Assembly: GCF_007997135.1 (NCBI RefSeq)
Contig: NZ_VORU01000002.1
Span: 62,001-126,000, forward strand
Length of the DNA: 64,000 bases
Direction of reading: 5' to 3'
Source of the DNA: Aequorivita lipolytica
Lineage (GTDB): Bacteria; Bacteroidota; Bacteroidia; Flavobacteriales; Flavobacteriaceae
Numbering within the stretch: the stretch's first letter is position 1; each line of letters begins with the position of its first letter. Position numbers and translations under genes: made by a program. Positions 35,765 to 46,389 of this stretch are shown piece after piece. Below the pieces are notes generated by a model. It saw only the letters and a list, made by a program, of their open reading frames with translations. It was not told where the DNA came from and did no database searches.

Positions 35765-36121
35765 ATGCAAAAAGTATATTATTTATCAAGTTGTGATACT
35801 TGCAAAAGAGTGATGGAAGAAATAGAAATTCCGTCGTCATTTATAAAACAAGATATTAAGGTTCAAGGAATAACCGAAGAAGAGTTGGATGAACTTTTCA
35901 ACCTTACCGATAGTTTTGAAGAACTTTTTAGCCGTAGGGCAAAGCTGTATAAAGAGAAAAATTTAAAAGGTGAAATCTTGCTGGAAGAGGACTACAAGGA
36001 TCTCATCCTAGAACACTACACTTTCTTAAAGCGGCCCGTGATTGTATATAACGACGAAATATTTATAGGAAGCAGCCCAAAAACTGTTGCTGCCGCTAAA
36101 AAATCCATCCATAAAAATTGA
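35765..36121 (+). CDS. ArsC/Spx-family thioredoxin-fold protein, 118 aa
   Basis: Glutaredoxin-like ArsC fold with the CxxC-type motif SSCDTCKRVMEE at residues 8-19, the arginine-containing RRAKLYKEKN region and FLKRPVIVYNDE. The family covers arsenate reductases, Spx and uncharacterised reductases. There are no arsenic genes nearby, so arsenate is not implied. Its stop overlaps the TTG start of the EamA gene by 3 bp, so the two are translationally coupled. Confidence 0.85.
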   Translation: MQKVYYLSSCDTCKRVMEEIEIPSSFIKQDIKVQGITEEELDELFNLTDSFEELFSRRAKLYKEKNLKGEILLEEDYKDLILEHYTFLKRPVIVYNDEIFIGSSPKTVAAAKKSIHKN

Positions 36122-37020
36122 CCAACCAACGCATCTTTGCGCTTTTGGCGGCAACCACTGCCAGCACTATCTATGGCATAAACCATACTATTGCCAAAGG
36201 GTTGATGCCAGACGTAATAAAGCCGTTCGGTTTCATATTATTGCGAGTGTCTGGTGCAGCCTTGATTTTTTGGATTATAAGTCTGTTCTTCCCTTCAGAA
36301 AAAGTGGAGCGTCGCGATTGGTTTAGATTCATAGCTTGCGCATTCTTCGGAATGGTTTTAAACATGCTCGCCTTTTTTAAAGGATTAAGCCTTTCTACAC
36401 CTATCAATAGTTCGGTTATCATCACAATTTCACCTGTTTTATTATTGGTGCTTTCTGCCTTTATTTTAAGGGAAAGAATAACTTGGATGAAGAGTCTTGG
36501 TATATTTTTAGGTTTGGCCGGTGCTTTGGTTTTAATTCTTTTTGGATTGAAAGAACAACCCAATGCCCCCAATATTCCGCTCGGTAATTTACTTTTTATA
36601 GTGAATGCAACCTCCTATTCTATCTATTTGATTTTAGTGAAACCCTTAGTCCCAAAATATAGCTCCATCACATTGATGAAGTTTCTTTTTCTCTTTGCTT
36701 TCCTAATAAATCTACCAATCGGAATATCAGAATTTACAGAAGTAGCTTGGAGCAGCCTTGCTTTTGAAGATATTTGGAAACTGGGCTTTGTCGTTCTTTG
36801 CACAACTGTAATGACCTATCTTCTGAATATTTACGCTTTGAAACAATTAAGCCCATCCACTATTGGTGCATTTATTTATTTACAGCCTGTAATTGCGGTG
36901 CTTTTTGCAGTACTAGTTGGCGCAGATAGCTTAACTGCATTGCGAATAGGCGCAGCAGCCTTAATATTTTTGGGCGTTTATCTTTCTACAATAAAACGTG
37001 TACGGAAGATTTCCGATTAA
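36118..37020 (+). CDS. EamA/DMT-superfamily transporter, 300 aa
   Basis: Ten membrane helices in two EamA repeats, with the N-terminal TTASTIYGINHTIAKGLMPD and the second-half TYLLNIYALKQLSPSTIGAFIYLQPVIAVLF. The start is TTG at 36118, inside the stop of the preceding gene (TTGA overlap). The next ATG would remove the first helix. The substrate is unknown. The stop overlaps the convergent thioesterase gene by three bases, so no terminator fits between. Confidence 0.88.
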   Translation: MTNQRIFALLAATTASTIYGINHTIAKGLMPDVIKPFGFILLRVSGAALIFWIISLFFPSEKVERRDWFRFIACAFFGMVLNMLAFFKGLSLSTPINSSVIITISPVLLLVLSAFILRERITWMKSLGIFLGLAGALVLILFGLKEQPNAPNIPLGNLLFIVNATSYSIYLILVKPLVPKYSSITLMKFLFLFAFLINLPIGISEFTEVAWSSLAFEDIWKLGFVVLCTTVMTYLLNIYALKQLSPSTIGAFIYLQPVIAVLFAVLVGADSLTALRIGAAALIFLGVYLSTIKRVRKISD

Positions 37021-39470: not shown

Positions 39471-40082
39471 ATGAAAGGAGGAAAATTGATAGTTTTTTCG
39501 GCACCCTCCGGCAGCGGAAAAACAACCATCGTACAGCATTTGCTGAAACAGGAAGATCTCAATTTAGAGTTTTCAGTTTCATGTACCTCACGCGAAGCTC
39601 GTGGCGATGAAAAGCACGGCGAGAATTATTATTTCATTTCCCTCAAAGATTTTAAGCAGCACATAAAAGATGGTGATTTTTTGGAGTGGGAAGAAGTGTA
39701 CCGCGATAATTTTTACGGTACGTTAAAAAGTGAAGTAGAACGTATTTGGAGCCACGGAAAAAACGTGATTTTCGATATTGACGTAGTGGGCGGACTTCGA
39801 ATTAAAAAGAAATTTCCCGAGAAGACCTTGGCTGTTTTCGTTAAACCACCGAGTATTGACGAGCTGAAAATTCGTTTAAAAAAGCGTAAAACCGAAAGTG
39901 ACGAACGCATCAATATGCGTATTGCAAAAGCTTCGGTAGAGCTTGCTACGGCACCACAATTTGATTATATCATCAAAAACCACGATTTAGAAATCGCTTT
40001 GAACGAAGCGCACGATTTGGTGGAGAGTTTTATAAATTCCAAACAAGAAAATCCCAAATTCCAAATTCCAAATTCCAAATAA
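39471..40082 (+). CDS. gmk: Guanylate kinase
   Basis: Phosphorylates GMP to GDP. The P-loop FSAPSGSGKTTIVQHLL (residues 8-24), the GMP-binding SCTSREARGDEKHGENYYF and VIFDIDVVGGLRIKKKFP segments are present, ending with the lid region KRKTESDERINMRIAKA. The usual end of the protein is near residue 190; the last dozen residues are encoded by a CAAATTC repeat and appear to be added tail. It is cotranscribed with yicC. Confidence 0.96.
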   Translation: MKGGKLIVFSAPSGSGKTTIVQHLLKQEDLNLEFSVSCTSREARGDEKHGENYYFISLKDFKQHIKDGDFLEWEEVYRDNFYGTLKSEVERIWSHGKNVIFDIDVVGGLRIKKKFPEKTLAVFVKPPSIDELKIRLKKRKTESDERINMRIAKASVELATAPQFDYIIKNHDLEIALNEAHDLVESFINSKQENPKFQIPNSK

Positions 40083-40090
40083 ATTCCAAA
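40055..40090 (+). repeat. CAAATTC heptamer repeat at the gmk 3' end
   Basis: Three consecutive CAAATTC units (40055-40075) plus degenerate copies to 40090. The gmk stop codon lies inside, so the gene now reads into repeat DNA. Related AAATTCC-type motifs appear elsewhere, e.g. near 50350. Confidence 0.75.
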
Positions 40091-40147
40091 AAAGAAAAAA
40101 ACAAATTTCAAAAAATTAATATTTTAAACGCATAAACTTTTAAACTC

Positions 40148-40738
40148 ATAAAAACTACTAAAAAAATAGGACTCTATTTCGGTACTTTCAACCCAATACA
40201 CATTGGGCATTTGATTATTGCCAACCACATGGTAGAGTTCAGCGATTTGGACGAAGTTTGGTTTGTGGTTACGCCGCATAATCCATTAAAGAAGAAGAAA
40301 ACATTATTGGAAGACCATCATCGATTAGCCATGGTTCGCATTGCAGTGGAAGACTATCCAAAGTTGCAAGCTAGCAATGTTGAATTTTACCTTCCACAAC
40401 CCAATTACACCGTGAATACCTTGGCCCATTTGGAAGAAAAATATCCTGAAAGTAATTTCTGCTTAATTATGGGAGAAGACAATCTGAAAAGCTTTCAAAA
40501 GTGGAAAAACTATCACGTGATTTTAGACAGATATTCAATTTATATTTATCCAAGAATTTCCGAAGGAACTGTGCAAACGCAATTTGATAATCATAAAAAG
40601 ATTGAAAAAGTTGGTGCGCCTATTATTCAGCTTTCTTCAACTTTTATACGCAATGGCATAAAATCTGGAAAGAACATTAGGCCCATGCTTTCTGCAGAAG
40701 TGTGGAAGTATTTGGATGAGATGAATTTTTATAAGTAG
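40148..40738 (+). CDS. nadD: Nicotinate-nucleotide adenylyltransferase, probable ATA start
   Basis: Makes nicotinate adenine dinucleotide in NAD synthesis. The nucleotidyltransferase signature GTFNPIHIGHL and the C-terminal QLSSTFIRNGIKSGKNI are complete. The frame is open from the TAA at 40133-40135 but holds no ATG, GTG or TTG before the signature; a TTG at 40211 lies after it. ATA at 40148 gives KTTKKIGLYFGTFNP, which aligns with family N-termini, so I place the start there (196 aa). Alternatively an original ATG has mutated or the sequence has an error. Follows gmk. Confidence 0.85.
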   Translation: MKTTKKIGLYFGTFNPIHIGHLIIANHMVEFSDLDEVWFVVTPHNPLKKKKTLLEDHHRLAMVRIAVEDYPKLQASNVEFYLPQPNYTVNTLAHLEEKYPESNFCLIMGEDNLKSFQKWKNYHVILDRYSIYIYPRISEGTVQTQFDNHKKIEKVGAPIIQLSSTFIRNGIKSGKNIRPMLSAEVWKYLDEMNFYK

Positions 40739-45979: not shown

Positions 45980-46389
45980 TTATTTTTTTCTAAGCTCGTC
46001 ACGAATTTTCATTAGAATATCTTTTTCAGATGGCCCCGGATCTGGTGCTGGAGCAGCTTCTTTTTTCTTACGTGCATTGCTGTAAGCTTTTACAATCAAG
46101 TACAAAACAAAACCAACAATAATAAGGTTGATGAGGGTATTGATCCATTTGCCATACATTATTGCATTTTCGGGTTTGGCTACTTCGCCATCGGGTCCAA
46201 TTACTTCATTATCAAGAACATATTCGAATCTGCAAAGTCTATACCCCCGGCAAAATGGCCAACGATTGGCATGATCATATCATTTGTAAATCCTGTAACA
46301 ACAAGCCCGACGGCTCCTGCCAGAATTACTGCAACGGTCAGGTCTACCACGTTTCCGGTCAAAATAAAATTCCTGAATTCTTTTAACAT
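45980..46389 (-). pseudogene. mscL: Large-conductance mechanosensitive channel, frameshifted
   Basis: Frame one from ATG 46389 gives the MscL N-terminus (MLKEFRNFILTGNVVDL, then AVILAGAVGLVVTGFTND and FAGGIDFADS) and stops at 46201. The adjacent frame continues exactly in register of the family: YVLDNEVIGPDGEVAKPENA, MYGKWINTLINLIIVGFVL, a charged linker and DILMKIRDELRKK to a TAA at 45980. Loss of one A from an AAA run near 46223 explains it; repaired, the gene is 411 bp, 136 aa, the usual MscL length. Either a real recent mutation or a sequence error. Its own terminator is intact. Confidence 0.9.

Follow-up and report, generated by a model that had tools for sequence, protein, structure and literature searches.

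The closest described parallels to the locus studied here are bacterial genes that begin at codons other than ATG, GTG or TTG. infC is reported to start at ATT in E. coli and at ATC in Streptomyces (PMC5472188), and at AUA in S. aureus (PMC13009471). In S. aureus, ccpN and citZ also start at AUA, an arrangement described as common to B. subtilis for ccpN and as occurring in the NCTC 8325 lineage for citZ; according to the same report, AUA reporters reach ~10% of AUG expression in poor medium, and non-canonical starts are tied to extended Shine-Dalgarno motifs (PMC13009471). The Streptomyces gene sigR is described as having a GTC start, as being repressed by IF3 and as misannotated in available genomes (PMC5472188). 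Bacteroidetes mRNAs, by contrast with the S. aureus cases, are reported to lack Shine-Dalgarno sequences naturally, and A-12 and A-13 are given as positive determinants of initiation in F. johnsoniae (PMC6847099). Short repeats close to start codons have also been described: intergenic TAACTGA heptamers occur in Beggiatoaceae and in five Bacteroidetes, A. sublithincola included, and in one Beggiatoaceae genome they are reported to be for the most part in forward orientation and immediately ahead of start codons (PMC4679880).

Here we analyze a 64,000-nt stretch of the Aequorivita lipolytica genome (contig NZ_VORU01000002.1, positions 62,001 to 126,000; hereafter the window), in which nadD has no canonical start codon and is probably initiated at an ATA. 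A non-canonical nadD start was not found in the titles and abstracts of the literature searched, a scope outside which most subscription journals fall.

The nadD frame of the window has no canonical start codon

The frame at 40133..40738 on the forward strand is assigned to NadD by its match to the profile TIGR00482 (167.4 bits, cut-off 112.45), and is followed by a gene that we take to be gpsA. Its translation (stop, TFKLIKTTKKIGLYFGTFNPIHIGHL...FYK, stop) carries the complete nucleotidyltransferase signature GTFNPIHIGHL in open frame, in agreement with the alignment to the solved NadD chain 1kam. The features of the locus are as follows.

39471..40082, + strand: gmk (guanylate kinase), the neighbor upstream of nadD, an ORF with an ATG start (TIGR03263, E 6.8e-63)
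40122..40152, + strand: octamer repeat array of TAAACTCA type with 8/16-nt period, running into the presumed start (Tandem Repeats Finder)
40133..40135, + strand: TAA, the final in-frame stop before nadD (frame reading)
40148..40150, + strand: ATA, presumed nadD start, codon -4 from the AAA at 40160 (column of the relatives' TTG)
40148..40738, + strand: nadD, nicotinate-nucleotide adenylyltransferase, 196 aa if ATA 40148 is the start (TIGR00482)
40166..40168, + strand: ATA, rival start, encoding the Ile in KKIG and preceded by a run of A (leader bases)
40181..40213, + strand: signature GTFNPIHIGHL, with TTG 40211 as its last codon (ORF list, translation)

An earlier sequence-only reading of the window had reported that this frame holds no ATG, GTG or TTG between the stop at 40133 and the signature, and that the sole listed start, TTG 40211, lies inside the signature. 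Both statements are borne out by reading the frame. The codons after the TAA run ACT TTT AAA CTC ATA(40148) AAA ACT ACT AAA AAA ATA(40166) GGA CTC TAT TTC, with no canonical start ahead of GTFNPIHIGHL. Genes of this kind may be missed or shortened by gene finders: the earliest nadD start on the ORF list is the final codon of the active-site signature.

From the end of gmk onward, every frame meets a stop before nadD (40133 in the nadD frame; 40080, 40125 and 40149, and 40117, 40141 and 40159, in the other two), so that a ribosome begun upstream at a canonical codon would need a hop to reach nadD. The gene is thus out of reach for a ribosome begun in the usual way, and its start codon must lie outside ATG, GTG and TTG. 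Throughout, we number codons from the AAA at 40160, taken as codon 0.

Startless nadD recurs within Aequorivita

Our same-genus set comprised 28 genomes, 27 of them with nadD; G007, which is 69% complete, gave no match. The nadD start is ATG in 10 and TTG in 10 (nine at -4, one at -3), and the remaining 7 have none: G000 (the window's genome), G006, G009, G013, G014, G024 and G026. Outside the genus, the 65 nadD loci (no identical copies among them, and none recurring in the order-level set) comprise 57 with ATG, 8 with GTG or TTG and 0 with none. In an order-level set of 23 nadD loci, 19 were readable (18 ATG, 1 TTG, 0 none) and 4 had no motif match. The genus and the outside loci differ both in startless nadD (7/27 versus 0/84; Fisher p 2.6e-5, kinship ignored) and in non-ATG nadD (17/27 versus 9/84; Fisher p 2e-7, kinship likewise ignored).

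Neighboring genes keep their ATG in this genus: it is found near the N-terminus of gmk in 27/27 genomes, in gpsA in 25/25 assessed and in yicC in 10/10 assessable, of 27 genomes. As a broader control, we took 324 homology-supported gene instances around nadD in 11 Aequorivita genomes and sought a start within the residue range -15 to +16 around the conserved N-terminus. ATG was present in 308, GTG or TTG only in 9, and no start in 7. Five of these 7 are nadD; the other two, an mscL-like piece in the window and a transporter piece in G013, are apparently broken frames. The nadD of G013 was scored as GTG/TTG in this count, its sole in-frame canonical codon, codon 24 of the frame, falling within the signature.

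A transporter-like gene in the window (36115..37017, + strand), presumably of EamA type, opens right after a stop; in 5/11 genomes the region of its conserved N-terminus offers GTG or TTG but lacks ATG. The transporter piece of G013 (L169, 14979..15588) is a frame without a canonical start near its conserved part and is probably a broken gene.

An ATA in the column of the relatives' start

In each of the seven startless genomes, ATA or ATC occupies position -4 or -5, coinciding with or adjoining the relatives' start codon. The sequence-only reading had proposed initiation at ATA 40148 and a comparison of the same codon in related genomes; in that comparison, ATA 40148 shares its column with the TTG of nine same-genus genomes and with the ATA of G026. 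The window and G026 both have the ATA at -4, and the flank in G026 reads ATA AAG ACT TCA against TTG AAG ACT TCA in the TTG relatives. The choice of codon is ambiguous in two genomes, G026 also having ATT at -5 and G009 ATT at -9. ATH codons occupy 31 of 399 positions in the startless leaders, equivalent to 0.15 per genome for -4 or -5; the chance of finding one at -4/-5 in about four leader families is ~5e-4, a value for positions chosen after looking.

The bases upstream point in the same direction for some positions and not for others. A-12 and A-13 are both present ahead of the -4/-5 codon in 7/7 startless genomes and ahead of the codon at +2 in 1/7. In the window, ATA 40148 has A at -6, -12 and -13, and C at -3. 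Counting against the -4/-5 codons, A-3 is present in 2/7 startless genomes and A-6 in 3/7, and the residues between -4 and KK are variable.

The main competitor is the next in-frame ATA at 40166 (codon +2), which would begin the protein as M-GLYFGTFNPIH and leave the preceding codons as an untranslated leader. This codon has A at -3, -6, -12 and -13 in the window, and A-3 and A-6 in 7/7 startless genomes, where it is ATA in 6 and ATC in 1; the TIGR00482 profile, moreover, begins two codons after 40166. ATA at +2 is also somewhat enriched where ATG is missing, in 15/17 TTG or no-start genes of the genus against 5/10 ATG genes, a weak difference (Fisher p 0.065, kinship ignored) that is seen for TTG-start genes taken separately (9/10). 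Outside the genus, however, ATA is likewise the commonest +2 codon (29/65), in genes that all have a canonical start. Furthermore, 0/104 canonical nadD genes (20 same-genus, 65 and 19 outside) need a start downstream of codon 0, and KKIG lies within the stretch aligned to solved NadD chains such as 1kam. Predicted leader folding is similar at the two sites, with unpaired levels of 0.65-0.81 at -4/-5 and 0.52-0.73 at +2. A start at 40148 is favored by the TTG column, by A-12 and A-13, by the lack of any canonical start downstream of codon 0 and by the chains aligned through KKIG; initiation at 40166 is unlikely by comparison, though it keeps a real share of the probability.

A second gene in the genus lends support to the proposed ATA 40148 start. 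No ATG, GTG or TTG precedes [AV]IAIRRKR of infC in 23/23 same-genus rows (the window's genome and 22 others, G024-G027 being left out of this search), and in 15/23 a stop stands directly before GCC ATA GCA ATA; in the window's genome this is locus L160 (G000 C15:19000-21000). From these rows, the start of Aequorivita infC (IF3) is most likely ATA. The absence of a canonical codon from all 23 indicates that Aequorivita uses a non-canonical start, most likely AUA, in a gene it cannot leave untranslated.

Together, these findings suggest that nadD is probably initiated weakly at AUA or AUC (AUA 40148 in the window), which would lower NadD synthesis and perhaps make it sensitive to IF3. AUA 40148 would start the protein with an initiator Met. 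Loss of the canonical start has left AUA or AUC at -4/-5, at or one codon before the relatives' TTG or the outgroup ATG, and this codon would serve in its place. In flavobacteria, which do not rely on Shine-Dalgarno pairing, the A-rich leader would place the ribosome. A weak start codon would reduce NadD synthesis and confer sensitivity to IF3, whose own gene infC itself appears to have a non-canonical start. Control of NAD synthesis by IF3 is at this point a testable guess only.

Error, gene decay and upstream initiation

As one explanation, the sequence-only reading had offered an error in the read; a true canonical codon would then stand at 40148, or a nearby indel would hide one. Such an indel could occur in this assembly, since another gene of the window, mscL-like and located at 45980-46389, looks frameshifted. 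Yet the same absence is found in six other genomes, two of them identical at the nadD start to named isolates (G024 to A. soesokkakensis RSSK-12 and G006 to A. aurantiaca SDUM287046). The reading had also noted that an upstream ATG brought into frame by correcting an indel would overturn it; the stretch 40040 to 40165 contains no ATG, GTG or TTG, whatever the frame, so an indel there brings no existing one into frame. With seven genomes sharing the absence, two identical to named isolates, a read error is no explanation, and we regard one in the window as very unlikely. The missing canonical nadD start is a sound observation that recurs in the genus. The reading's other suggestion, a single recent change of ATG to ATA, is not borne out by the relatives either: the column is TTG in 9/27 genomes, and the start type requires many changes on the tree described below.

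The frameshifted gene at 45980-46389 (- strand), presumably an mscL-like channel, is split into two ORFs of 62 and 59 aa; homologues of the matching frame are present in 9/10 other Aequorivita genomes compared. Either decay of the gene or an erroneous indel in the assembly would account for the split.

NadD is in general an essential enzyme, and in these bacteria it is apparently indispensable. Loss of a start codon can nonetheless be the first step of decay, and nadD might be decaying in the startless species while another enzyme replaces it. The nadD frame is, however, intact in 7/7 startless genomes, and its dN/dS relative to close relatives spans 0.03-0.12 (computable in 6/7; in many of the pairs dS approaches saturation). 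By this measure, nadD is retained under purifying selection in the six startless genomes where the ratio could be computed. Each of the seven has exactly one TIGR00482 match over the cut-off, nadD itself. A weaker TIGR00482 match in the window's genome reads as what we take to be a CoaD-type protein, and in the other six the weak matches span that part of the profile as well, in frames of similar size. A PF01467 search of the window's genome gave three matches, nadD and two others that are presumably CoaD- and RibF-type proteins. No NadR match reached its cut-off in the seven startless genomes, and sub-cut-off matches cover mainly profile positions 164-324, which we assume to be the kinase part. 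With purifying selection and neither a second TIGR00482 match nor a NadR match over cut-off, we reject decay, to which we assign almost no probability.

Canonical initiation upstream, whether in gmk or in a short leader ORF, with a subsequent frameshift, stop read-through or hop into nadD, is equally improbable and is rejected: two of the seven genomes (L024, L029) do have an ATG in the nadD frame at -36 and -48, but each is followed by an in-frame stop before nadD, the other five have no such ATG in the 110 nt examined (the in-frame TTG of L023, at -84, precedes its stop), and in the window stops interrupt all three frames.

Repeated loss of the start and octamer repeats

We mapped the start types onto a four-gene tree (nadD, gmk, gpsA and yicC; 31 rows, gpsA missing in 4). 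The seven startless genomes are scattered on it. Three start types (ATG, TTG, none) require 11 changes, and the label 'none' requires 7 parsimony changes, at least 3 of which are forced by well-supported branches; the tree is weakly supported inside the genus (12 of 28 inner branches starred, 10 open). The label 'none' clusters no more than shuffled labels do (500/500 shuffles as low). The startless G014 and the ATG-bearing G012 are sisters (90/87 support) with wholly different leaders, octamers in the former and a palindromic insert in the latter. A single inherited loss is disfavored by the tree, firmly so only for the 3 changes forced by well-supported branches. At the level of sequence, the canonical nadD start has been lost several times within Aequorivita, although the seven startless genomes are not independent and fall into about four leader families.

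In the window, AAACTCAT-type repeats extend into the presumed start codon (40122-40152 and 40125-40152 in Tandem Repeats Finder). The leaders of G006, G013, G014 and G024 contain octamers of AAACTCAT or CGACTCAT type, spotted by eye, so that such repeats reach the nadD start region in 5/7 startless genomes. No obvious repeat array is present at the nadD start of G026 or G009, though the start is lost there too. A different insert occurs between gmk and nadD at L012, L018, L025 and L028, where the palindromic GACGCACGGCCGTGCGTC or variants of it appear one to two times upstream of a nadD starting ATG GCA. A comparison of gmk-to-nadD distances gave no significant difference (p 0.41), with at least 4 of its 27 rows wrong (negative distances).

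The octamer is not confined to nadD. In the window's genome, the TTTTAAACTCATAAA type occurs at 20 places with at most 1 mismatch (loci L208-L227), against 4 for the reversed pattern, or ~5x. Seventeen of these places were inspected: one is nadD, 12 are followed by an open frame in the same direction whose first canonical codon lies 14-79 nt after the motif (L224, one of the 12, resembles a shadow frame), and 4 lack such a frame. In further genomes of the genus, an ATG follows the CTCATCGACTCATCGACT form after 5 nt at three places among those listed.

Given the overlap of repeats and nadD start region in five startless genomes, the array may have overwritten the nadD start there, with the ATA or ATC coming from the repeat unit itself (ACTCATA, ACTCATC or alike). 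A more far-reaching scenario is that spreading octamers repeatedly overwrote the nadD start and donated AUA or AUC, that the weak start was retained for coupling NAD synthesis to the level of IF3, and that infC and nadD form a small IF3-sensitive group in a phylum without Shine-Dalgarno use. We put this forward as speculation that is, taken whole, unlikely.

Comparison with known non-canonical starts

With ATG, TTG, ATA and ATC on nearly one protein, nadD offers a natural series for the study of start choice in Bacteroidota without Shine-Dalgarno pairing. AUA starts are already known in other bacterial genes, and nadD would likely join them.

The array at nadD resembles the reported TAACTGA heptamers in being made of short tandem repeats near start codons; it differs from them, as they are described, in having an octamer as its unit and in reaching into the presumed start codon. 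Among genes, infC is, like nadD with its candidate codon, an essential gene with a near-cognate start. The infC start serves autoregulation in E. coli, whereas the nadD codon varies by species (ATG, TTG, ATA, ATC). The Streptomyces gene sigR likewise shares a non-canonical start with the candidate at nadD, but its codon is GTC, its product is a regulatory sigma factor and the effect of IF3 on it is reported as measured in Streptomyces, whereas nadD encodes an enzyme and an IF3 effect on it is conjectural. The AUA codon is shared by ccpN and citZ, which are reported AUA genes other than infC and one of which, like nadD, is a central metabolic enzyme; their starts are described as accompanied by extended Shine-Dalgarno motifs, whereas mRNAs of the phylum that hosts this nadD are reported to lack Shine-Dalgarno sequences naturally.
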